DNA of 64,000 nucleotides from Lachnospiraceae bacterium (GTDB taxonomy: Bacteria > Bacillota > Clostridia > Lachnospirales > Lachnospiraceae): positions 1 through 64,000 of the forward strand of contig JAQXVT010000080.1 in assembly GCA_029225065.1 (NCBI GenBank). The letters run 5' to 3'. The translations under genes and the position numbers were made by a program. Of the stretch, positions 1 to 12,295 are shown one piece after another (position 1 is the stretch's first letter; the number at the start of each line of letters is the position of its first letter). Under the pieces are notes generated by a model. That model was not told where the DNA came from and did not search any database. It worked only from the letters and a program-made list of their open reading frames with translations.

Positions 1-17
1 ATTGGTGGTGTAATAGA

Positions 18-1949
18 TTGAATGAAGAAAAAAGAGTAATTTATACGAAAGAGGAGCTTGCCGCGCGGGTTCGCGTTCCGGCGATTGTGGAGCAGGACCT
101 GAAGCGGATTATCAGCGACCGTCTGGAGCAGTGCGGACTGTATTACCGCGTGTTTTCCCGCATTAAAACGGCCTCTTCGATGGCACATAAGTTTGAGATG
201 AAGGACTATGGAGAGGAAAACCGAAAGCTTCAGGATCTGATTGGTGTGAGGGTTAATCTGTATTTTGACGATGACGTGGAGATCTGCAAAAAGATCATGG
301 AAAATACGTTTGATCTGATTGACTGGTCAACATCTGAGATCAGTGATGAGGAATTTAAGCCAACGAAGTTAAATGGTGTGTGTCGTCTTCCAGAGTATCT
401 GCGGTCTGAGATTTCTCCGGAAACATGGGAAATGTCCATCGATGATACGTTTGAAATCCAAATCAAAACGATGTTTTTCGAAGGCTGGCATGAGATTGAA
501 CATGATATGCGCTACAAGGGAGAAGAACTCTGGAAAAATTACAATGGGTTCTCACGCTATTTCAACAGTATCCTGGCTACGTTGGAGCTGTGCGACAAAT
601 CGATGGTGACGCTGTTTGAGGATCTTGGCCATTCCCTTTACAAATCCGGCAGATGGAGCGACATGATTAAGAGCCATTTCCGATTAAAGCTCGGTGAAGG
701 AGTGTTGTATCCGGAGGTGGAGCAGGTATTAAATGAAGATGTCGAGCAGCAGGTTGAGAATCTGGCGAAGCGCATTTATAAAACAAGCAAGCAGACGCTG
801 GTGGATCAGCTGCTGCGGCGCAGCCGAAAGATTCCGATCAATGTCAACACGATCATTGCATTGCTTAATGACAGCCAGTTTCACGATGCGAGGCTGACCG
901 CGATTTTCAAAAAGCGTGATGTTTACAATGACGGCCGGGAGGAAAGCCTTGGCGAGTCGAGACATTATGAGATGCAGCCGTTGACACGTCATACCGTTTT
1001 TCAGATGTGTACGCAGGTAGATGGCAGCCGCATGAAAGACATAAAGAATCCATCACCGGATGTGATCTTTGAGCAGTCTGCGGATTCTATTTATCAGTGG
1101 GTTGTCGGAAAATACGGCGGACTGTTTAAAAATATGCCGGCTGAGACGTGTACGTATCATGCAGATATCCTTGCGTACCATGTGGCAGTCAATTATGACC
1201 GGGAAAACCGCAGAATGCACATGCATGTGCGTCATATGGATATGGAAGTCGGAGGCAGGATCTGGTATTCGGAGGCAAGTCTGGAGGTCGATGCAATGGA
1301 GCGGGTGCTGCTGAAGGTCTGTAACGGTTACGCGGAGCCGGAGCGTGAGCACATGGTACAGGATGCGGGCATGATCTTTTTCAGCTATCCGGGTTATTAC
1401 AAGACAATCGTGGACAGCATTGGGATTGTGAACGGGATCGAGTGTGTCAACCGCCGCCGCATTTTGAAGGAAGAGCAGTTTGCCGGGATTCAGCAGGCAC
1501 TGAAAGACCCGGCGTGCATGTTTCCGCTTGTACTGATTGTATCGAAGCGGATGGAGGACGGTATGATGGACGAGGACTGGCTTGGTCAGTTCCGTGTATC
1601 AGATTTTACAAGAACGGTATGGCGGTATGCACACGTTTTTACGTGCTATGAGGAAGTGGGAAAAAAATTTCTTGAGCAGCTTGGCATCCGAAAGGAACGC
1701 GCAGGTCAGATCCCGCGGCTGTACATTTTCTGGCCGGACGGCGATGTGGATGACTACGGACCGGAGGATGTGGAAAACTGCAGCTTCGGCCGTCATCTGG
1801 AAGCGCGTGGCGATGCAAGAACGTACGATATCGTGCGCGGCGGACAGGCATTTTACCACAAAATTGTGACGGACCTGCGCGAGTGGAACGTGTCCGCAGA
1901 GCGCTGGGAAGGGTTTAAATTAGAGATCTTGACGGAGCTGCCAAGCTAG
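18..1949 (+). CDS. RelA/SpoT-fold nucleotidyltransferase-like protein with large unassigned C-terminus
   Basis: The first ~170 residues resemble the alarmone synthetase (RelA/SpoT) fold. RIKTASSMAHK (48-58) matches the basic RxKxxxS loop, DLIGVRV (73-79) the metal-binding DxxGxR strand, and FEIQIKT with EIEHDMRYK (145-167) the conserved EVQIRT/EIEH block. The usual GYRSIH loop, which stacks on the acceptor nucleotide, is not evident; NGVCRLP (119-125) sits there. I see no HD hydrolase, TGS or ACT domain. The ~470-residue remainder is soluble-looking and I do not recognise it. The TTG start is supported by GGTGGTG at 4-10, but the frame is open to base 1, so the true start may lie outside the window. 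Whether it makes (p)ppGpp, another pyrophosphorylated product or nothing is unknown. A strong terminator follows. Confidence 0.6.
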   Translation: MNEEKRVIYTKEELAARVRVPAIVEQDLKRIISDRLEQCGLYYRVFSRIKTASSMAHKFEMKDYGEENRKLQDLIGVRVNLYFDDDVEICKKIMENTFDLIDWSTSEISDEEFKPTKLNGVCRLPEYLRSEISPETWEMSIDDTFEIQIKTMFFEGWHEIEHDMRYKGEELWKNYNGFSRYFNSILATLELCDKSMVTLFEDLGHSLYKSGRWSDMIKSHFRLKLGEGVLYPEVEQVLNEDVEQQVENLAKRIYKTSKQTLVDQLLRRSRKIPINVNTIIALLNDSQFHDARLTAIFKKRDVYNDGREESLGESRHYEMQPLTRHTVFQMCTQVDGSRMKDIKNPSPDVIFEQSADSIYQWVVGKYGGLFKNMPAETCTYHADILAYHVAVNYDRENRRMHMHVRHMDMEVGGRIWYSEASLEVDAMERVLLKVCNGYAEPEREHMVQDAGMIFFSYPGYYKTIVDSIGIVNGIECVNRRRILKEEQFAGIQQALKDPACMFPLVLIVSKRMEDGMMDEDWLGQFRVSDFTRTVWRYAHVFTCYEEVGKKFLEQLGIRKERAGQIPRLYIFWPDGDVDDYGPEDVENCSFGRHLEARGDARTYDIVRGGQAFYHKIVTDLREWNVSAERWEGFKLEILTELPS

Positions 1950-2031
1950 AGTAGCTTTTAAGTGGGAAATGCAGGAAAGAGAAAGTGAATTGTGAATAAT
2001 CGTTTTGACAGTATTATAAAGAAGAGAGCGA

Positions 2032-2066
2032 GAGAAACCAGATCAGACGATCCGGTTTCTCTTTTT
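2032..2066 (+). terminator. Intrinsic terminator of the RelA/SpoT-like gene
   Basis: A 13-bp stem with one mismatch (GAGAAACCAGATC against GATCCGGTTTCTC), a 4-nt loop and a run of five T. It ends the upstream gene before the transporter remnant. Confidence 0.85.
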
Positions 2067-2082
2067 CCATTCACGCGGCGGC

Positions 2083-2450
2083 ATGCCCATCACGCCGTCA
2101 GCTGTTATCAAACCGAACGCTCCGGATGATGACGGAAACTGGGCGATTGCACTTCTGACGGAAGGCTCCTTCAATCAGGGAGGTACAACAGTCAGCATTT
2201 ACAAGGACAGCCTGAACAAGGAGGCTGCATGGGCTTACCTGAAATATACGTACTTCTCAGAGGAAGGTGCAGCAATTGTCATGATCGGTCTGATGCTTCC
2301 GACGCAGATTTCTGTGATCGGTTACGTTATGGAAATGTGGACGGCGCATCTGACGAACACCCTGTGGTCGGTTATCTGTGTCTGGATTGCCAATCCGTTC
2401 AGTGCCTTTTTTCATAATGCAGTTTCTGCCAGGACTCGATTATACAGCGC
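2083..2450 (+). pseudogene. Chimeric remnant of a sugar ABC transporter (binding protein fused to permease fragment)
   Basis: The frame encodes two unrelated transporter pieces. ITPSAVIKPNAPDDDGNW through EEGAAIVM reads like the C-terminal lobe of a family 1 sugar-binding protein. From about 2281 it continues as GLMLPTQISVIG...LTNTLW...IANPFSAFF, which resembles the interior of a MalG-type permease. At the six-T run 2407-2412 the homology leaves the frame: the next frame carries FFIMQFLPGLDYTA, the expected permease continuation. Homology ends near 2450, just before the opp promoter. There is no ribosome binding site, signal peptide or complete domain. I infer an internal deletion joining two genes of a lost operon, followed by a frameshift. 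Confidence 0.7.
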
Positions 2451-2467
2451 AAAAACGCGTTTTTCGG

Positions 2468-2496
2468 TTGACAAAAACTGTGGAAAAGGCTATAGT
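2468..2496 (+). promoter_or_regulatory. Sigma-A promoter of the opp operon
   Basis: TTGACA (2468-2473), a 17-bp spacer and TATAGT (2491-2496), 70 bp upstream of oppB. It is a near-consensus vegetative promoter directly after the transporter remnant. Confidence 0.8.
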
Positions 2497-2567
2497 TAAT
2501 AACATATGTCTTCACAGTACAGACATCTGTAGACAATACAAAAAAGAGATAAGGAGTGTGATGGAAT

Positions 2568-3479
2568 TTGGCTAAATACATAGTAAAACGAGTTTTATTA
2601 GCCATCGTAACCGTATTTATTGTCTGTGCGATTACGTTTTTTTCCATGAACGCGATCCCTGGAGGACCGTTCGAGGGAGAAAAAGCGCTCAGCCCTGATG
2701 TAAAAGCAGTGCTGATGGAGCGCTACAATCTGGACAAACCGGTAGGAGAACAGTTCGTGCTGTATCTCGGAAATCTGCTGCACGGCGATTTTGGTGTGTC
2801 ACTGAAAACAGGCCGTGACATCGGAACCACCATTTTTGATTCTTTCAAGATTTCTGCAAAGCTTGGCGGCATGGCAGCACTGGTTGCACTGATCGCCGGC
2901 GTGATCCTGGGAAGTACCGCTGCTTTGATGAGAAACAAGTGGCCGGATCGTGTGATCGTGTTCTTTTCCACGCTGGCAGCGGCAGTTCCGAGCTTCGTGC
3001 TGGCATCACTTTTGCTGCTGGTATTCTGTATTCAGCTGCAGTGGATTCCGGTCTGGAGCACACAGAACCAGAATTATGTGCTTCCGATTATTGCGCTTTC
3101 CTTCTATCCGATGGCGTACATCACCCGCCTGACAAAGACGAGCATGCTTGACGCGCTCGGACAGGATTACGTGCGCACGGCAAGAGCAAAGGGTGTGCCG
3201 CAGATCTTTGTTATTTTCAAACATGCGCTGCGTAACGCACTGATTCCGGTTATCACGTACGTAGGACCGATGCTGGCCTCTATCCTGACCGGAAGTCTGG
3301 TCGTTGAGAACATCTTTACGATCGGCGGACTCGGAGCTAAATTCATCACTGGTATCACGACGAGAGACTACCCGATGATTATGGGAACCACCATTTTCCT
3401 TGCGACGCTGATGGTTATCATGAACCTGCTCAGCGATATCGTTTACAAGCTGGTAGATCCGAGAATCACATTTGAATAG
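2568..3479 (+). CDS. oppB: Peptide ABC transporter permease OppB
   Basis: This is the first of the two membrane subunits of a peptide/nickel-class ABC importer. The 303 residues fit the DppB/OppB family: an N-terminal transmembrane helix (about 9-30), a periplasm-type loop with ALSPDVKAVLMERYNLDKPVGEQ, then five more helices. The cytoplasmic EAA loop that contacts the ATPase is visible as ARAKGVPQIFVIFKHALRNA. The start is TTG, chosen because AAGGAG lies at 2551-2556 and the nearby ATG at 2561 is in another frame. It opens the operon oppB-C-D-F-A, all on the plus strand with short gaps. Confidence 0.93.
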   Translation: MAKYIVKRVLLAIVTVFIVCAITFFSMNAIPGGPFEGEKALSPDVKAVLMERYNLDKPVGEQFVLYLGNLLHGDFGVSLKTGRDIGTTIFDSFKISAKLGGMAALVALIAGVILGSTAALMRNKWPDRVIVFFSTLAAAVPSFVLASLLLLVFCIQLQWIPVWSTQNQNYVLPIIALSFYPMAYITRLTKTSMLDALGQDYVRTARAKGVPQIFVIFKHALRNALIPVITYVGPMLASILTGSLVVENIFTIGGLGAKFITGITTRDYPMIMGTTIFLATLMVIMNLLSDIVYKLVDPRITFE

Positions 3480-3490
3480 GAGGGGATGAA

Positions 3491-4579
3491 ATGGCAAATA
3501 CAGAAAATACAAAAGACACTGAATTTCCAAAGAAGAATCCTCTGAGCATGCAAATCGATCTCGCGAAGTTTGCACCGGCAACCGATGAGGAAAAAGCGCA
3601 GCAGGAGGTCATGAGCGAGTCGACGACCTTTTTTAAGGACGGTATGCGCAAGCTTCTGAAAAATCCGCTGGCGGTGGGAAGTATCATCGTACTGATTCTT
3701 ATCATCGCAGCCGCGGTTGTTGGCCCGATGATTGTTCCGTACGGCTATGAGGAGATGATTTCCGTAAACGGACGCCGTGACAAGACGGCGAAGAACCTCG
3801 GACCGTTTGAGTGGTCCAAAAACGAGCAGAAGGCAATCGATTCCGGCGAGAAGCTGTTTCCGCATATTCTTGGCACGGATGAGCAGTGCCGTGATTATTT
3901 TGTCCGTATTCTTTACGGTACGCGCGTATCGCTGTTCATCGGATTTTTCGCGGCAATCCTCGTACTTGTGATCGGACTGATTTACGGAAGTATATCGGGG
4001 TATGCAGGCGGAAAAGTCGATATGATCATGATGCGTATCGTCGATGTCATATACTCACTTCCGGACATGCTGATGGTTATTCTGCTGTCCGTCGTGCTGA
4101 AAGAAGTGCTGACGCCGGTGATCGAGGGCACGTTCCTTGCGCGCCTTGGAAGCAACATGATCTCACTGTTCATCGTTTTCGGACTTCTTTACTGGGTCGG
4201 CATGGCACGTCTTGTGCGCGGCCAGATCCTTTCCATCAAGGAAAATGAATACATTCTCGCGGCACGTTCGATCGGTGCGAAGCCGGGACGGATTATCAAA
4301 AAGCATATCCTTCCGAACTGCCTGAGCGTTATCATCATTTCCACTGCACTTCAGGTGCCGTCCGCAATCTTTACGGAGAGCTTCTTAAGCTTTGCAGGCC
4401 TTGGTGTGCAGGCACCGATGCCGTCACTTGGCTCTCTGGCAAACGCGGCACGCGGCGGTATGATGAGCTACCCGCACAAACTGGTATTTCCGGCCGTTGT
4501 GATCTGTCTGATCGTTTTGGCATTCAACCTGCTTGGCGACGGACTGCGCGACGCATTTGACCCGAAACTTAGGAGGTAA
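3491..4579 (+). CDS. oppC: Peptide ABC transporter permease OppC
   Basis: Second membrane subunit of the importer. It has the OppC pattern: a cytoplasmic N-terminal tail of ~55 residues, a first membrane helix at about 58-78 (VGSIIVLILIIAAAVVGPMI), a long extracytoplasmic segment containing the OppC-typical FPHILGTDEQCRDYF, and five further helices. The EAA loop is AARSIGAKPGRIIKKHILPN. At 362 residues it is slightly long, mostly through the N-terminal tail. The ATG follows AGGAGGGG at 3479-3486. The gap to oppB is 11 bp, so the two are surely cotranscribed. Confidence 0.93.
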   Translation: MANTENTKDTEFPKKNPLSMQIDLAKFAPATDEEKAQQEVMSESTTFFKDGMRKLLKNPLAVGSIIVLILIIAAAVVGPMIVPYGYEEMISVNGRRDKTAKNLGPFEWSKNEQKAIDSGEKLFPHILGTDEQCRDYFVRILYGTRVSLFIGFFAAILVLVIGLIYGSISGYAGGKVDMIMMRIVDVIYSLPDMLMVILLSVVLKEVLTPVIEGTFLARLGSNMISLFIVFGLLYWVGMARLVRGQILSIKENEYILAARSIGAKPGRIIKKHILPNCLSVIIISTALQVPSAIFTESFLSFAGLGVQAPMPSLGSLANAARGGMMSYPHKLVFPAVVICLIVLAFNLLGDGLRDAFDPKLRR

Positions 4580-4584
4580 GGAAG

Positions 4585-5601
4585 ATGAGTACGAATACAA
4601 GTGAATATCTGCTGGAAGTGAAAGATCTTCATACCTCATTTTTCACAGATTCCGGTGAAGTAAAAGCGGTAAACGGCGTATCCTTTACGCTGAAGCCGGG
4701 CGAGATCATGGGAATCGTCGGTGAGTCCGGATCCGGAAAGAGTGTGACGGCTTACTCCATCATGCGGATTCTGGCAGACACCGGACGAATCACAGGCGGA
4801 CAGGTACTGTACCGCGGCGAAGATCTTGCGACGTATGACAATAAAAAGATGGCGGGTTTCCGCGGAAAATGCTGCAGTATCATTTTCCAGGACCCGATGA
4901 CGAGTCTGAATCCGGTTTTTACAGTCGGAAGTCAGATCATGGAAGCGATTCGCCTTCACACGAATAAATCGAAATCCGAAGTGAAAGCAAGAGCGATCGA
5001 GATGCTGGAGCTGGTCGGTGTCAATGAGCCGGCAAAGCGTATCAATCAGTATCCGCATGAGCTTTCCGGTGGTATGCGTCAGCGTGTTATGATAGCGATG
5101 GCACTGGCCTGTGAACCGGATATCCTGATCGCGGATGAGCCGACGACCGCGCTTGACGTGACGATCCAGGCACAGATCCTGGAGCTGATGCAGGATCTGC
5201 AGAAGCGTCTCGGCATGGCGATCATCATGGTTACGCATGACCTTGGTGTTATCGCAGACATGTGCGACAAGATTGTGGTTATGTACGGCGGAAGCATCTG
5301 CGAGCGCGGTACGGCCGATGATATTTTCTACGATGCAAGACATGAGTACACGAAAGGGCTGCTGCGTTCTATTCCGAACGTAAACAACAGCAAGGAGCGT
5401 CTGATTCCGATCAGCGGTACGCCGATCAACCTTCTGAACATGCCGAAGGGCTGTGCATTCTGCAGCCGCTGTGACAAGGCGATGAAGATCTGTCTGGATC
5501 AGAAGCCGGAGGAAGTAGCAGTCAGCGAGACGCATCAGGCAGCCTGCTGGATGAATATAAAGAAAATGATGGAAGAACAGGCAGGAGGTGCGAACGCATG
5601 A
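4585..5601 (+). CDS. oppD: Peptide ABC transporter ATPase OppD
   Basis: First ATPase subunit of the importer. Walker A is GESGSGKS (46-53), the signature is LSGGMRQRV, Walker B is ILIADEP, and the switch histidine lies in VTHDLGV. The C-terminus has the oligopeptide/dipeptide extension with a cysteine cluster ([14 protein letters not shown]...AACW), which in this family binds a metal or iron-sulfur cluster. The ATG is preceded by AGGAGGTAAGG, which overlaps the stop of oppC. The last codons overlap oppF by 4 bp (ATGA), indicating translational coupling of the two ATPases. Confidence 0.95.
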
Positions 5602-6560
5602 GCAGCGAATATCTCGTAGAGGTCAAAGATCTGAAGCAGCACTTCCCGATCAAGACCGGATTTATGAAAACCACATACTTAAAAGCAGTGGACGGCGTTT
5701 CCTTCGCAATCAAGCCGGGCGAGACACTTGGACTCGTAGGAGAGAGCGGATGCGGCAAAACAACCGTTGGCCGGACGCTTTTAAGATTATATGAGCCGAC
5801 GGGGGGACAGGTATTATTTAACGGAGAAGAAGTGACGAACAAAAATATCACTGCGCTGCGCAAAGAGATGCAGATGGTATTTCAGGACCCGTATTCTTCT
5901 CTTGACCCGCGTATGACCGTCGAGGATATCATCGGCGAGCCGCTGGATGTGCATAAGCTTTACAAATCCAAAGCAGAGCGCCGTGACAAAATCCTGAATC
6001 TGATGGAGCTGGTCGGACTGAACGCAGAACATGCGACGCGTTATGCGCATGAGTTCTCCGGCGGACAGCGCCAGCGTATCGGTATCGCACGTGCACTTGC
6101 CGTAGATCCGAAATTCATCGTCTGCGATGAGCCGGTATCCGCGCTGGACGTATCGATTCAGGCACAGGTTGTCAACATGTTTGAGGATCTGCAGGAAAAG
6201 CTTGGCGTGGCCTATCTGTTCATTGCCCATGACCTGCTGATCGTGCGTCACATTTCTGACCGTATCGCTGTTATGTACCTCGGAAAGATTGTCGAGATCG
6301 CGGATGCGGACGAACTGAGCGATCATCCGCAGCATCCGTATACACAGTCACTGCTTTCCGCTGTGCCGATTCCGGATCCGAAGATCACAAGACAGAGAAA
6401 GCGTATCATCCTGGAAGGAGACGTGCCGAGCCCGATGAACATGCCGACCGGCTGTGCATTCCGCTCCCGCTGCCGTTATGCGACCGAGAAGTGCGCACAG
6501 CAGTGCCCGAATCTGGAAGACAGAGGAAACGGACATTTTGTTGCATGTTGGAATAAATGA
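5598..6560 (+). CDS. oppF: Peptide ABC transporter ATPase OppF
   Basis: Second ATPase subunit, which pairs with OppD. Walker A is GESGCGKT, the signature is FSGGQRQRI, Walker B is FIVCDEP and the switch histidine is in IAHDLL. The C-terminal extension again has spaced cysteines ([18 protein letters not shown]). The start is the ATG of an ATGA overlap with oppD, behind AGGAGG at 5582-5587. No terminator is seen in the ~160 bp between it and oppA, so oppA is probably cotranscribed. Confidence 0.95.
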
Positions 6561-6722
6561 TGGTATAATGAGAAAGTTTTAAGGGGTTATCCTTTTAAAC
6601 TGATAAAGCGGCAGCGCAGAAAAAATTATCTGTCTGCTGCAAAAATAAAACGGGGCACGGTTCAGTACTTGGCGGAAGGCTGACCGGATACCGTTACAAA
6701 AAAACAAATGGAGGTAGGGATT

Positions 6723-8552
6723 ATGAAGAGAAAAAAACTCATGGCGATCACGCTTGCTGCAGTGACAGCAATCGCACCGGCATCCGCTGCATTTGCAGAG
6801 GAAGCTACGGAAGCCGCTACTGAGGCTGCTACAGAGGCAGCAGCAGAAGGTGAGACAGAAGCAGCCGCTGAGGCAGCAGACGGAGATGTTGCTCCGATCG
6901 AGGGCGCAGACGTTGCAAAGAAGTCTTCTGAAGCAGCACCGGATTGGCAGGAGTACAACAACCTGATCCAGGAGATCAAGACTACCACAGATATGGCTGA
7001 GCGTGAAGCAATGATGCATCAGGCAGAGGACATGCTGATGGAGACAGGTGCTCTTGTTCCGCTGTACTACTACAATGATATTTATCTTCAGAAAGAAAAC
7101 GTAACAGGCATCTACTGCAACAACTATGGATTCAAATATTTCATGTTTGCAGATGCAGGTGACGCTACCACACTTCGCCTGAACCTGGCAAGTGAACCGG
7201 ATAAGCTTGACCCGGCACTGAACTCCACCGTTGACGGCGCATGCCTTGCTGTAAACAGCTTCAATGGCCTTTGCACCTACGATGAGAACGGTGAGATCGC
7301 AATGGACTTCGCTGACAGCTACGAAGCAAGCGAGGACGGCCTGACCTATACTTTCACTCTGAAGGATGGCCTGAAGTGGAGCGATGGCACAGACCTGAAT
7401 GCAAACGATTTCGTTTACTCCTGGAACCGTGCTGCAAGCGCAGAGACAGGTGCTGACTACGCATATATGTTTGACCCGATCGCAAGAAAAGATGACGGCA
7501 CACTTGATATGACCGCAAGTGATGACGGAAAGACCCTTACCATCAATCTGGTAGCTCCGTGCGCATACTTCCTTGACCTTTGCGCATTCCCGGCATTCTA
7601 CGCAGTTCCGCAGGCAAGCGTTGAGGCTGCTGACGGATGGGAGCAGAACCCGGGTGCATGGTGTCAGGAAGCTGGATTCGTAACCAGCGGCGCTTACACA
7701 CTGGAGAGCTGGACACACAACGAGAGCATGGTTTACGTAAAGAACCCGAACTACTATCGTGCAGACGAAGTGAAGATCGAGCGTCTTGAGTTCATGCTGA
7801 GTGCAGATGACACCGCAATCTACGCTGCTTACAATGCAGGCGACCTTGATTTCGCTGATACCGTTCCGACGGATGAGATTCAGAGCCTTCTGGACAATCC
7901 GGAATTCCACATCATCGACAACCTTGGTACCTACTACGTATGCTTCAACGTAAACAGTGATCTGTTCGCTGGCAAGACTCCGGAGCAGGCAGCTGCTATG
8001 AGACGTGGTCTTACTCTCCTGATCGACCGTGACTACATCGTAGAGAACATCGGTCAGACAGGTCAGCAGCTTGCAAACACCTTCATCCCGGCAGGTATGG
8101 CAGATGGCAACGGCGGCGAGTTCCGTCAGAACGATGACGCTTACACCTATCCGAACGAAGAGGCAGTTGGATACTACGATCCGTCCTATGATGCGTACGA
8201 TGATAACCTTGCACAGGCAATCGAACTTCTGAAAGAGGCTGGTTATGAGTTCGTAGACGATGGAAACGGAAACGAAGTTCTCTCTGACGCAACTCCGATC
8301 GACATCACCTACATCACCAACGACGGAAGCGGACACGTTGCAGTCGCAGAGGCTCTGCAGCAGGATTTCGCAGCAATCGGCGCAAACCTGACCATCGAGA
8401 CAAACGAGTGGAACGTATTCCTGAACGAGCGTAAAGCTGGTAACTTCGATATGGCCCGCAATGGCTGGCTCGCTGACTTCAACGACCCGATCAACATGCT
8501 TGAGATGTGGACGACAGACAGCGGAAACAACGACGTACAGTTTGGTAAATAA
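6723..8552 (+). CDS. oppA: Peptide ABC transporter substrate-binding protein OppA, apparently circularly permuted
   Basis: A secreted family 5 solute-binding protein that should deliver peptides to OppBCDF. After a Sec signal peptide (1-25, cleavage after AFA) and an E/A/T-rich linker (26-70), residues ~72-145 read APDWQEYNNLI...EDMLMETGALVPLYYYN...GFKYFMFADA. In this family that block is normally the very C-terminus. The usual N-terminal start (TLRLNLASEPDKLDPALN) follows at ~150. The protein ends at SGNNDVQFGK, just where the displaced block would normally begin. The order is therefore signal, C-terminal piece, core. There is no lipobox cysteine, so it is probably released rather than lipid-anchored. 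The ATG at 6723 has GGAGGTAGGG 5 bp upstream; an in-frame ATG at 6708 overlaps that site and was rejected. Confidence 0.9.
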   Translation: MKRKKLMAITLAAVTAIAPASAAFAEEATEAATEAATEAAAEGETEAAAEAADGDVAPIEGADVAKKSSEAAPDWQEYNNLIQEIKTTTDMAEREAMMHQAEDMLMETGALVPLYYYNDIYLQKENVTGIYCNNYGFKYFMFADAGDATTLRLNLASEPDKLDPALNSTVDGACLAVNSFNGLCTYDENGEIAMDFADSYEASEDGLTYTFTLKDGLKWSDGTDLNANDFVYSWNRAASAETGADYAYMFDPIARKDDGTLDMTASDDGKTLTINLVAPCAYFLDLCAFPAFYAVPQASVEAADGWEQNPGAWCQEAGFVTSGAYTLESWTHNESMVYVKNPNYYRADEVKIERLEFMLSADDTAIYAAYNAGDLDFADTVPTDEIQSLLDNPEFHIIDNLGTYYVCFNVNSDLFAGKTPEQAAAMRRGLTLLIDRDYIVENIGQTGQQLANTFIPAGMADGNGGEFRQNDDAYTYPNEEAVGYYDPSYDAYDDNLAQAIELLKEAGYEFVDDGNGNEVLSDATPIDITYITNDGSGHVAVAEALQQDFAAIGANLTIETNEWNVFLNERKAGNFDMARNGWLADFNDPINMLEMWTTDSGNNDVQFGK

Positions 8553-8595
8553 TTAAGGGACGAAAGAACCTGATTCCGCAGGCAGCGGAAGAGAG

Positions 8596-8626
8596 GGGCG
8601 GCATGCTTGGGCGTGCCGTCCTTTTT
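8596..8626 (+). terminator. Intrinsic terminator of the opp operon
   Basis: An 11-bp stem (GGGCGGCATGC against GCGTGCCGTCC, two G-T pairs), a 4-nt loop and five T. It directly abuts the left end of the palindromic element at 8627. Confidence 0.85.
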
Positions 8627-8768
8627 GTTACTGTTCAGAGCCAAGTAAAATTTCATAAAACATGCGTAAAATGCCTGCATTTTTAAGCTTGTTTTTGAAA
8701 TTTTATTTGGCGGATACGCCACACCAATGAAATGCGAAGCATTTTGGAGGTGGGGTCTGAACAGTAAC
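8627..8768. repeat. 142-bp MITE-like palindromic element
   Basis: The element is bounded by 13-bp perfect terminal inverted repeats, GTTACTGTTCAGA (8627-8639) and TCTGAACAGTAAC (8756-8768). Inside is a second inverted repeat: AAGTAAAATTTCATAAAAC near 8643 against GTTTTTGAAATTTTATTTGG near 8691. A third small one is AAATGC-GAA-GCATTT near 8731. Its right part resembles, in inverted orientation, the 60-bp element at 52638-52697. It has no coding capacity. It fits a non-autonomous transposable element or a dispersed RNA hairpin family, lying between the opp terminator and the pepP promoter. Confidence 0.7.
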
Positions 8769-8794
8769 CTTTAGAAGAAAAGGTGGAAATTTCA

Positions 8795-8824
8795 TTTCCA
8801 GAAAGCCAGTTCGCGTGGTATAAT
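8795..8824 (+). promoter_or_regulatory. Sigma-A promoter of the Xaa-Pro aminopeptidase gene
   Basis: TTTCCA (8795-8800), an 18-bp spacer and a perfect TATAAT (8819-8824) with the extended -10 TGG. The leader to the ATG at 8979 is about 150 nt and I see no recognisable riboswitch in it. Confidence 0.7.
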
Positions 8825-8978
8825 AGATGTTGCAGGCTTCGTACCGGCTGTCTCTGGCTATACCATGCAGAGAATGGCTGGAAAAAGCAGATTGGGAGAT
8901 CGATCCGTGACAGCATACGGAGTCAGAAGAATGGAAGCCCAGACAAAAGAAAATAAGGGGCTTCAAGAGGAGCAGAAC

Positions 8979-10772
8979 ATGACGACAGTAAAAGAGAGAA
9001 TCGCAGCGCTTCGTGCGCGCATGAAAGAAAAAGGAATCGATGCCTATCTGATTCCGACGGATGATTACCATGCATCCGAATACGTAGGTGAATTTTTTAA
9101 ATGCCGTGCCTATATGACCGGCTTTACCGGTTCCGCGGGAACCGCAGTGATCACGCAGGACATGGCGGGCATGTGGACGGACGCACGTTACTTTATTCAG
9201 GCAGAGCGTCAGATGGGGGAAAATGTTACCTTATTTAAGATGCGGGAACCGGGGGTACCGACGGTGGAAGGATTCCTGAAGTCTGCCTTAAAAGAAGGCA
9301 GCTGTCTTGGCTTTGACGGAAGATGCCTCGGATACTCGGAGGCAGAAAAGCTGGTGCGAGAGCTTGGAGAACAAGGGGTTCGCGTGGACAGCAGTGAAGA
9401 TCTGGTCGGTGAAATCTGGACAGATCGCCCGGCATTGTCAGCAGAGCCGGCCTGGGAGCTGGATCTGAAATGGGCAGGCAAGGCGAGAGAGGACAAGATC
9501 GCTGAAATTCGGAAAGCGATGGAAGAAAAAGGTGCAGATCTTTTCCTGCTCACGAAACTTGAGGATATCGCGTGGCTTTTAAATATCCGCGGAAATGATA
9601 TTCATACTGTTCCGGTGGTGCTTTCTTATCTGATGATGAGCCAGGATGAGATCCGGCTGTATGCAAATGAGAAAGTATTCTCGGATGCATTGAAAGAGAA
9701 GCTGGCAAAGGCAGGTGTCACGATTCATCCGTACAATGCGGTTTATGAAGAAGCAGCACAGATTCCGGCAGGCAAAAAGGTACTGGTGGATAAAGGAAAG
9801 GCAAACTATCTGCTGGTCGCACGGATTCCGGAGAATGTCACGGTACTCGATGAGGGCAACCTGACACTGCTGCCGAAGGCAATCAAGAATCCGGTTGAGG
9901 TGGAAAATGAGAAGATTGCCCATATCAAAGACGGCGTGGCAGTCACAAAATTCATTTACTGGCTGAAGAAAAATGTCGGCAAAGAGAAGATCACAGAGTG
10001 CTCGGCTGCCGACTATCTGAATCATTTGCGTGCACAGCAGGAGCATTTTGTTGATAACAGCTTTGATCCGATTGTTTCGTACGGAGAGCATGCGGCAATG
10101 AACCACTATTCTCCGACACCGGAGACTGATGTGGAGGTTGAGCCGCACGGACTGCTGCTTGCCGATACGGGCGGACATTACCTGGAGGGGTCGACCGATA
10201 TCACGCGTACTATTGCCATGGGACCGATCACAGACGATGAGCGTGACCACTTTACAGCAGTGCTTCGCGGTCATCTGAATCTGGCAAATGCGAAATTCCT
10301 GTACGGCTGCACCGGCATCAACCTGGATTATCTGGCGCGTCAGCCGCTGTGGGAGCGCGGAGAAGATTTTAAGCACGGAACGGGACATGGAGTCGGCTAT
10401 TGCCTCAGCGTCCATGAGTCTCCAAATGGCTTTCGGTGGAGACGGCTTCCGGATCGCAACGAGGATGCTATTCTTGAGGAAGGCATGATTACGTCCAACG
10501 AGCCGGGCTATTACGTAGAGGGCGGCTACGGCATCCGCCACGAGAACATGATCGTCTGCAAAAAAGCAGAGAAAAATGAGTACGGTCAGTTTATGTGCTT
10601 TGAAAACCTGACGATGGCGCCGTTTGATCTGGACGCGATCGATCCGGAGCAGATGACCGTAAAAGAAAGACATCTGCTGAACGATTACCACAAAGAAGTA
10701 TATGAGAAGATCGCACCGCATCTGACAGAAGAGGAGCGGGAGTGGCTGAAAGAGGCGACAAGGGAAATCTAG
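8979..10772 (+). CDS. pepP: Xaa-Pro aminopeptidase (M24B family)
   Basis: A cytoplasmic metallopeptidase that removes N-terminal residues before proline. It has two creatinase-type N-terminal domains (the first includes AYLIPTDDYHASEYVGEFFKC) and a C-terminal pita-bread catalytic domain. Metal ligands are seen in LADTGGHYLEGSTDITRT (two Asp), HGTGHGVGY and HESP (His), SNEPGYY (Glu) and the IRHENM Glu. At 597 residues it matches the long aminopeptidase P subfamily. The ATG follows AAGAGGAGC at 8965-8973; the open frame extends to 8865 but without another good site. It is a sensible partner of the peptide importer upstream, although it has its own promoter. Confidence 0.93.
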   Translation: MTTVKERIAALRARMKEKGIDAYLIPTDDYHASEYVGEFFKCRAYMTGFTGSAGTAVITQDMAGMWTDARYFIQAERQMGENVTLFKMREPGVPTVEGFLKSALKEGSCLGFDGRCLGYSEAEKLVRELGEQGVRVDSSEDLVGEIWTDRPALSAEPAWELDLKWAGKAREDKIAEIRKAMEEKGADLFLLTKLEDIAWLLNIRGNDIHTVPVVLSYLMMSQDEIRLYANEKVFSDALKEKLAKAGVTIHPYNAVYEEAAQIPAGKKVLVDKGKANYLLVARIPENVTVLDEGNLTLLPKAIKNPVEVENEKIAHIKDGVAVTKFIYWLKKNVGKEKITECSAADYLNHLRAQQEHFVDNSFDPIVSYGEHAAMNHYSPTPETDVEVEPHGLLLADTGGHYLEGSTDITRTIAMGPITDDERDHFTAVLRGHLNLANAKFLYGCTGINLDYLARQPLWERGEDFKHGTGHGVGYCLSVHESPNGFRWRRLPDRNEDAILEEGMITSNEPGYYVEGGYGIRHENMIVCKKAEKNEYGQFMCFENLTMAPFDLDAIDPEQMTVKERHLLNDYHKEVYEKIAPHLTEEEREWLKEATREI

Positions 10773-10807
10773 ATTCCTGTTTTGGTTAGGGTATTCAAGA
10801 GAACAAT

Positions 10808-10851
10808 AAAAGGCACAGGATAGAAATTGAAAATTCTACTCTGTGCCTTTT
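10808..10851. terminator. Bidirectional terminator between pepP and coaX
   Basis: An 11-bp perfect stem, AAAAGGCACAG against CTGTGCCTTTT, around a 22-nt loop, with A/T tracts on both sides. It lies between two convergent genes and can serve both. Confidence 0.8.
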
Positions 10852-10864
10852 ATCTTGAAAAAAT

Positions 10865-11629
10865 TTATCGATTTTTATTATAAATAATCATCAGTCCCTT
10901 CAGCAGCAACTGATCGTCAATAATGATCTTTCGCTTGCAGTAAGGAATAATGACCTTTGCCAGCCCGCCGGTGGAGATCACGGTACACTGCTCACCGATC
11001 TCCTCCTCGATTTTTTCAACGACGCCGTCGATACTGGAAGCATTGCTGTAAATGATGCCGCTGCGCATGCAGTCGATCGTATTGGATCCGATTACACGTT
11101 TGGGTGGATCAAGACTGATTTTCGGAAGCTGTGAAGTCCGTGTGGTCAGGGAATCAAGAGAAACACGAAGCCCCGGGATAATCATACCGCCGAGAAAGTT
11201 TTTGTTGCGATCCACTGCTGAGATCGTGGTGGCGGTACCCATATCGATGATGATGAGCGGGCACGGATACTCGTGGATCGCAGCAACAGCATCGGCCACG
11301 CGGTCACTTCCAAGCTGAGCCGGATTATCGAGTTTGATTTTCAGTCCGGTACGGATGCCGGGACCGACAACCATGACTGGTTTGCCGGTCAGGCGTGTCA
11401 TTGCAGCCTGAACGGTGTGGGTGACAGAAGGTACGACAGAGGAAATGATGCCGCCTTCAAACGCACGGTGGCTTAAATTGTTCAGCTCCAGAATATTTTT
11501 AATGAGAATCGTATATTCCAGCTCGGTGGAATTCGGATTGGTTGAGAGCCGTTCGATAAAAAGAATCTGATCATTTTCAAAACAGCCAAGTACAATATTT
11601 GAATTTCCAATGTCTACAGCAAGAATCAT
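10865..11629 (-). CDS. coaX: Type III pantothenate kinase
   Basis: Phosphorylates pantothenate to 4'-phosphopantothenate, the first step of coenzyme A synthesis. It shows the ASKHA fold of CoaX: DIGNSNIVLG at the N-terminus (phosphate 1), GSDRVADAVAA (the family GADR motif with Ser for Ala), DMGTATTISAVD and the ISTGGLA loop. The length of 254 residues is typical. It is read leftwards behind panT with a 39-bp gap and an AGGAGG site. Together with PanT and the divergent coaBC it forms a CoA supply locus. Confidence 0.95.
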   Translation of the reverse strand: MILAVDIGNSNIVLGCFENDQILFIERLSTNPNSTELEYTILIKNILELNNLSHRAFEGGIISSVVPSVTHTVQAAMTRLTGKPVMVVGPGIRTGLKIKLDNPAQLGSDRVADAVAAIHEYPCPLIIIDMGTATTISAVDRNKNFLGGMIIPGLRVSLDSLTTRTSQLPKISLDPPKRVIGSNTIDCMRSGIIYSNASSIDGVVEKIEEEIGEQCTVISTGGLAKVIIPYCKRKIIIDDQLLLKGLMIIYNKNR

Positions 11630-11668
11630 GTCCTACCTCCTGAAAAAACTAATCCTGAAAAAGTGGGG

Positions 11669-12295
11669 TCAGGCTGCGTTGGCACGTTTTACAGCTGGTA
11701 CAAAATGCGCCTTGTAGAGCGCCAGTCCGACTGCCCCGGTAATAATTGTAGAAGAAACCATTTCGCAAACCGCATTGATTCCGACGAAACCGCAGATAAA
11801 TGCAATCACATTTTTTCCGCCCATCAGCGTCTGCATGTATTCCGTGTTGCCGAAAAGCAGTACCAGAAGTGACATGAACAGTGCTGTATTTAAAAATGCA
11901 GAACAGAATCCGGTCACAAAGCAGGCAGTTGGTGTGTTGGATACTTTGCGCACACCGCGGAAAATGTAGCCGAGCAGCAGTCCGTCAAGCAAACGTGGAA
12001 CAAAACGCTGAACGAACGCGAGCACCGGGTTGATTCCGAATAAAACGGCGCCCATGGCACTCGTTCCGCCGACACCAATGCACTGCAGAAAGCTGGTCAG
12101 ACCGAATACAGAGCCGACAATAGCGCCGCCTGCAGGTCCGAGTGTAATGGCAGCCACAGCGACCGGAATCACATTAAATGTGATGGCAAGTGGTCCGATA
12201 TTCAGATATCCGAGTGGGGTGTAGGCCATGAGAAGAAGAATTGCGGTCATCAGGCCGAGAAGTACGAGTTGCGAAGTGTTGAATTTTTTGTTCAT
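11669..12295 (-). CDS. panT: ECF transporter S component, probable pantothenate-specific PanT
   Basis: A 208-residue integral membrane protein with six hydrophobic segments. It has the S-component start of LVLLGLMTAILLLMAYTPLGYLNIG and the Ala/Gly-rich AAITLGPAGGAIVGSVFGL segment that contacts the ECF module. S components bind the vitamin and rely on a shared EcfAAT energising unit, which is not in this window. Specificity for pantothenate is inferred from the neighbours: coaX directly downstream in the same operon and coaBC divergent upstream. AAGGAGG precedes the start. Confidence 0.8.
   Translation of the reverse strand: MNKKFNTSQLVLLGLMTAILLLMAYTPLGYLNIGPLAITFNVIPVAVAAITLGPAGGAIVGSVFGLTSFLQCIGVGGTSAMGAVLFGINPVLAFVQRFVPRLLDGLLLGYIFRGVRKVSNTPTACFVTGFCSAFLNTALFMSLLVLLFGNTEYMQTLMGGKNVIAFICGFVGINAVCEMVSSTIITGAVGLALYKAHFVPAVKRANAA

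Follow-up and report, generated by a model that had tools for sequence, protein, structure and literature searches.

Among the substrate-binding proteins of ATP-binding cassette (ABC) transporters, natural circular permutation has a precedent in TpMglB-2 (Tp0684) of Treponema pallidum, a permuted glucose-binding protein designated 'Type Ic / Cluster Bc' with homologues in Gram-positive gut bacteria. According to PMC4990184, TpMglB-2 has the Type I / cluster B sugar-binding fold, but the strands that normally open the N-lobe are found close to the C-terminus, the chain makes one additional hinge crossing and the sequence match of the moved part is poor; its authors raise a link of permutation to membrane tethering. 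Textbook natural circular permutations are those of saposin/swaposin and of the DNA methyltransferases; for the latter the permutation intermediates are well documented, and the usual model is that a gene is duplicated in tandem, fused and trimmed (PMC3320104). Here we describe a protein of the OppA/DppE type encoded on a stretch of 64,000 nucleotides from a Lachnospiraceae bacterium of the gut (GenBank assembly GCA_029225065.1, contig JAQXVT010000080.1, positions 1 to 64,000; the whole stretch is called the window below), which is very probably a natural circular permutant of the family-5 fold and a conserved working protein.

The closest described proteins are OppA and DppE (family 5, cluster C, PF00496), with which the window protein shares the fold, the profile match, the peptide-anchoring Asp and the oppBCDF operon, but from which it differs in carrying the C-terminal ~74 residues at its N-terminus, in a tether that would sit on lobe 2, and in lacking a lipobox. 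Both its sequence and its model are of family 5 and not of the Type I / cluster B fold. Unlike the moved part of TpMglB-2, its block is clearly homologous to the ordinary counterpart, and relatives in ordinary order with 50-64% core identity exist. In contrast to saposin and the methyltransferases, a single operon lineage appears here to have gone through repeated changes of order; no intermediate was found for this protein in the sets of open reading frames (ORFs) and genomes given below. The open-access literature searched, with few subscription papers and no preprints, held no report of a permuted family-5 binding protein among the matches listed. The permutation in family 5 and the unusual natural series of both orders appear to be new, permuted Type I binding proteins being known from TpMglB-2.

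Order of the parts in the binding protein

The binding-protein gene is the ORF at 6723-8552 on the + strand and encodes 609 residues. The ORF list and the translation confirm the start and stop given by the first-pass annotation, and a GGAGG is seen by eye just 5' of the ATG at 6723. The protein runs from a signal peptide through a linker, the block and a few joining residues to the core, as follows.

6723..6800, + strand: signal peptide (residues 1-26) of signal-peptidase-I type, cleaved, as judged by eye, between AFA and EE; without a lipobox cysteine
6801..6935, + strand: Ala/Glu/Thr-rich linker (residues 27-71), partly of 12-base repeats
6936..7157, + strand: moved block (residues 72-145), corresponding to the C-terminal ~74 residues of ordinary OppA/DppE
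7158..7169, + strand: joint between the old C- and N-termini (residues 146-149)
7170..8549, + strand: core (residues 150-609), from the canonical N-terminus up to the loop after GNND
8475..8477, + strand: codon of Asp585, aligned with Asp419 of S. Typhimurium OppA
8523..8552, + strand: new C-terminus GNNDVQFGK and stop, in the loop where the chain was opened

When the protein was compared with solved chains by phmmer, residues 150-603 aligned with residues 23-444 of B. subtilis DppE (8ay0), and a separate piece, residues 76-144, aligned with DppE 451-519 (independent E-value, i-E, 3e-9). In B. subtilis OppA (8are), residues 144-471 and 518-605 together corresponded to 15-450 and the block piece, residues 76-141, to 455-520 (i-E 7.5e-5). 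S. Typhimurium OppA (1b05) gave the same rotated order, with the block piece by itself not significant (i-E 7); in the numbering of this protein the cut falls between residues 441 and 446. The first-pass annotation had read residues ~72-145 as the usual C-terminal part, had placed the canonical N-terminus at ~150 and had proposed a natural circular permutation of an OppA-type protein. These alignments, rotated rather than co-linear in all three chains, bear out that reading, and its boundaries were correct to within a few residues.

The match to PF00496 covers residues 192-603 with 268.5 bits against a cut-off of 32.4, which places the protein in family 5. A routine Pfam scan nevertheless shows nothing odd, because this family-5 'Middle' model ends at residue 603 of 609, just before the cut, and the permutation lies in its blind spot. 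In the NCBIfam OppA profile NF011684 (543 positions), residues 149-606 correspond to positions 39-466, the best of two stretches, whereas residues 62-570 of the unpermuted relative P0002 correspond to positions 44-524 in one continuous stretch. The curated cut-off of this profile (947) was reached neither by the window protein (207.7 bits) nor by the unpermuted P0002 (225.0) and P0003 (251.7); since the unpermuted relatives also fall short, the shortfall reflects distance from the model's own proteins and not permutation.

The block (72-145) shares 63% identity with its C-terminal counterpart in the unpermuted relative L141. In the unpermuted relative the junction reads ...SGNNDPQFGVNPTSAAPDWSKYDEL..., and in the window protein the C-terminal end is ...SGNNDVQFGK and the block starts ...SSEAAPDWQEYNNL, so that both junctions agree, as had been claimed from the letters of the window. 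The ends that are new in the window protein are adjacent in the ordinary relative, the old ends are joined, and all segments of the ordinary protein are present in swapped order, with a loss of at most a few loop residues between the new ends. The same holds for the relatives described below: 2-9 residues separate the aligned ends of block and core in 113/113 permuted ORFs, and 108 of the 113 stop 4-5 residues past the aligned core. These sequence comparisons show that the chain was opened in the loop after GNND and that a few residues now bridge the old C- and N-termini. Chance similarity, or an unrelated N-terminal domain, is rejected by the block alignments and the profile matches.

The predicted fold is confident (predicted local distance difference test 92.6, predicted template-modelling score 0.91) and is that of a large two-lobed family-5 protein. 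With a sequential aligner, the comparison with OppA suggested by the first-pass annotation superposed model residues 81-548 on residues 1-443 of 517 of OppA (1ola), with a root-mean-square deviation of 2.1 Å over 424 residues, and the modelled chain is thus predicted to fold with an OppA-fold core. The block is modelled with high confidence as helix-helix-long strand, the predicted make-up of the C-terminus of the unpermuted relative L141. That the old termini would lie close in the fold is implied by the shortness of the fusion (2-9 residues) together with the confident model.

The gene very probably codes for the substrate-binding component of an Opp-type ABC importer of peptides, with OppBCDF encoded upstream. 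The equivalent of Asp585 is invariant in the 57 permuted proteins of alignment A1 (D524) and in the 41 ordinary proteins of alignment A2 (D433); in OppA, Asp419 is the residue that we take to hold the alpha-amino group of the peptide. Because this Asp and the operon are kept, the window protein probably acts as OppA does in binding and delivering peptides. Purifying selection acts on the gene: against L009, L010, L040 and L041, dN/dS was 0.04-0.10 for the block and 0.06-0.14 for the core, with dS near or above 1; for the other five pairs, silent sites were saturated in part or in full.

With the domain limits of the OppA fold as we assume them, the signal peptide and linker would now attach to lobe 2 (domain III) and not to lobe 1. 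A crude regular expression for the lipobox was negative for the window protein; it was positive for 97/121 permuted ORFs with a callable start (2/123 had none) and for 50/74 ordinary-order ORFs (5/79 had none). By eye, the six other family-5 binding proteins of the same genome (L002-L007) have no clear lipobox, with a cysteine in or near the hydrophobic stretch in L003, L004 and L006, and the genome encodes the lipoprotein transferase Lgt (G000:C45:83020-83796). The linker varies strongly in length and sequence across relatives. In a permuted protein of a Blautia sp. metagenome-assembled genome (L098, ORF from 3925) the linker is Ala/Glu-rich, has 656 residues with an 11-residue periodicity, and matches the Pfam apolipoprotein helices (113.2 bits against a cut-off of 90). 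Signal peptide and linker look as if they were a reusable module, since in the same genome a different open frame of 427 residues (L008, G000:C70) carries the signal peptide of the window protein and its TEAATEAA linker.

Spread of the permuted order among relatives

Scanning public genomes with the window protein yielded 347 relatives, and the 80 best were retained; this set is biased to permuted relatives, as two of the six peptide patterns lay in the block and only best matches were kept. The block precedes the core in 80/80 of these best-matching loci, and oppF lies directly upstream in 79, the 80th (L059) beginning at a contig end. The exact context oppB-C-D-F-block-core was found in 57. 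Permuted examples include Eisenbergiella tayi DSM 26961, E. porci, Blautia caecimuris DSM 29492, Proteiniclasticum aestuarii and Lachnospiraceae bacterium COE1, and one of the 80 loci lies in AP025576.1, a 7.29-Mb record titled complete genome. The genome of the window is itself an 88-contig draft, but a misassembly or binning artefact joining two oppA copies has a negligible probability and was rejected, as the same order and end points recur in many independent assemblies, AP025576.1 among them, and the genome has no second close copy (the next best match is 30% identical).

In the wider set of loci L001-L176, 113 ORFs were permuted and 56 ordinary, some genes having been fetched twice. Among 47 genomes of the window's genus, a full-length permuted match was present in 8, the window's included; the gene in G023 was ordinary and belonged to this ingroup, the match in G043 was partial and was given no class, and the remaining genomes had distant matches only, or none at E 1e-40. 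Of 299 genomes of the window's family, 24 (again with the window's) were permuted, 8 had an ordinary gene of 57-66% identity, and 16 more had only more distant ordinary matches at E 1e-90. In a second family-level group (f82) a permuted ORF occurred in 25/150 genomes, with a partial, unclassed match in one more (L274) and only ordinary matches, of 45-48% identity, in 15; in a third (f5) the permuted form occurred in 2/148. A plasmid scan by similarity gave 3420 records with matches, all below 60% identity. The permuted form is thus conserved across Lachnospiraceae and at least two further family-level groups; the first-pass annotation had suggested looking for the arrangement in related genomes. 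One permuted gene (L237 / L126, G316:C1:439075-440847) is interrupted by an in-frame TAG, and in L222 (G230) the permuted gene precedes oppBCDF rather than following it.

History of the two orders

Ordinary-order proteins with 50-64% core identity (L141-L146, L016, L198-L204 and others) stand behind the same oppBCDF genes where looked at (L210-L220), and permuted and ordinary orthologues at the same operon position are ~57-67% identical. For the first alignment, thinning at 88% left 98/169 rows, of which trees used 52 and 41; a further binding-protein tree used 55 of 202 rows. For OppBCDF, 10/121 loci were dropped for an incomplete gene set and thinning at 90% left 64 of 111; the tree used 49 of the 111 loci plus L221, and the approximately unbiased (AU) test was done without L221.

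In the binding-protein trees the ordinary relatives fall among the permuted rows. In the OppBCDF tree the ordinary L210 and L212 join permuted operons at 100/100, and eight ordinary operons form part of another nested group, inside which the permuted L221 is found. A single permuted clade was rejected by AU tests with the binding protein (difference 101 log-likelihood (lnL) units, p-AU 0.0002, 41 rows), with OppBCDF (207, 4e-6, 49 rows) and with the joint data (458, 6e-4, 50 rows), and a single origin of the permuted form is rejected with it. The ordinary ingroup rows as one clade were likewise rejected (183, 3e-5, OppBCDF; with L221, 226, 1e-5, joint). The joint tree of binding protein and OppBCDF (1839 columns) has 4 changes, all forced by starred branches; under any rooting at least 3 switches fall inside the ingroup, and 3 suffice with reversal allowed. 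Without reversal the joint tree requires 9 gains (7-10 over 200 bootstrap trees, from which only gain counts were used), and 5 at best for any ingroup root. Interleaving persists without L173 and with denser outgroups. Whole-operon transfer as its cause is ruled out because the operon's own tree is the yardstick, and gene conversion of the core as sole cause is insufficient, interleaving being present in each core third and in OppBCDF.

The trees thus support that the order changed several times within one operon lineage. By the outgroup the ordinary order is ancestral, and the most parsimonious account of the joint tree, which we favour, starts from a single early permutation, after which the ordinary order was regained twice and the permuted order once. 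On balance it is somewhat probable that the permutation is reversible, that is, that one orthologous oppBCDF-A lineage was permuted early, went back to the ordinary order two or more times through the same pair of junctions, and underwent at least one new permutation.

The loop at the cut could bear traces of this. In distant ordinary proteins it is typically GNNDAQWSNAEYD, one group having a ~31-residue loop that starts QFGKG, and in ingroup ordinary proteins it is such as GNNDTQFGKDPSNTAAPDWTKYD; permuted proteins mostly end GNNDxQFG[KR] and start with AAPDW or a similar motif. The residues in between could be the site of the first chain opening or the scar of a return. The permutation itself would have arisen by tandem duplication, fusion and trimming, the route already proposed by the first-pass annotation. 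It is plausible, and tandem permuted copies occur (L113, at 3956 and 5845; L078, at 5850-6700, with the upstream copy decayed), although the fused intermediate did not turn up in the ORFs and genomes covered. A lone orphan block in L078 was rejected as a split intermediate, as it belongs to the decayed tandem copy.

Several points weigh against this account of origin and history. No fused block-core-block intermediate was found among 202 + 36 classified ORFs or, by the coordinates of block matches (E up to 1e-8), in 299 genomes, and no split intermediate in the same ORF and genome sets; the duplication route predicts an intermediate at least transiently. For the three thirds of the core, 4, 5 and 5 changes are counted, but just 2, 2 and 4 are forced by starred branches, and in the block-only tree (73 columns) only 1 is. 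The root rests on a distant outgroup, and once the ingroup root is shifted, 5 gains instead of 9 are enough in the absence of reversal, which makes several independent gains possible. Some supports along the ingroup backbone are moderate or weak (80-93, with some values of the Shimodaira-Hasegawa-like approximate likelihood ratio test, SH-aLRT, lower), and the re-permuted L221 is placed by two of four Opp genes and the binding protein. The tree subsets (52 and 41 of 98, 55/202, 49/111 plus L221) were chosen after the first tree had been seen, and the ordinary-clade groups of the AU test were also named after the tree had been seen.

A serious possibility, albeit one that falls short of being probable, is that permuted and ordinary genes present together recombined homologously, and that this switched the order. 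Crossing over within the 1.35 kb of core common to both would give block-core-block, and losing either block would then fix the order with the end points inherited. Recombination of this kind would explain why the order switched repeatedly while the end points stayed the same; the two forms are collinear in the core, and tandem copies exist. On the other hand, the block-core-block ORF that it calls for is the one missing from the searches above, none of the 202 classified ORFs belongs to a locus with permuted and ordinary close copies side by side, and the block is too short, at 73 columns, to reveal donor ancestry.

It is rather unlikely that at least five independent permutations took place at the same loop and were never reversed, the ordinary relatives having kept the ancestral order. 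The outgroup does make the ordinary order ancestral, the long loop between GNND and the block in ingroup ordinary members (QFGKDPSNTAAPDW-like) may be a place where a cut is tolerated, and the joint between the old ends varies in length from lineage to lineage (2-9 residues). Against these stand the number of gains required on the joint tree and the near-identical end points in all lineages, for which each event must have cut at the same residues. Moreover, a gain-only model fits worse than a reversible two-state model with an equal number of parameters, by 6.2 (OppBCDF), 6.0 (binding protein) and 7.5 (joint) lnL units.

A single permutation, with the interleaving due to tree error or mixing of paralogues, is very improbable: support is moderate for parts of the backbone, long branches lead to L173 and a few other rows, and single genes and gene parts resolve the groups only partly, but one permuted clade is rejected on three data sets, the interleaving is seen in each core third, without L173 and with denser outgroups, and both forms occupy the same operon position.

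Operon context and implications

The binding-protein gene follows four transporter genes, of which the names oppB, oppC and oppD are those we presume from sequence type.

2568..3479, + strand: oppB (permease), ORF; gene order kept in relatives
3491..4579, + strand: oppC (permease), ORF; gene order kept in relatives
4585..5601, + strand: oppD (ATPase), ORF; gene order kept in relatives
5598..6560, + strand: oppF (ATPase), ORF; directly upstream of the binding-protein gene
8591..8626, + strand: terminator-like hairpin closing the operon, from a consensus scan (16 pairs, then a T run)

The terminator scan found 4 such sites against a shuffle mean of 2.7 (standard deviation 1.8), a count that is not significant, and Rfam gave no match at gathering scores over window positions 1-12000. 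Upstream of oppB lies an ORF (2083-2499) that looks to us like the end part of a binding protein of family-1 type to which unrelated sequence is fused.

As a rule, natural circular permutations are regarded as single old events between distant proteins. Here, permuted and ordinary orthologues are found at the same operon position and with common junctions. If the reversal is true, they would form a natural series in which orthologues of both orders occupy one operon position.
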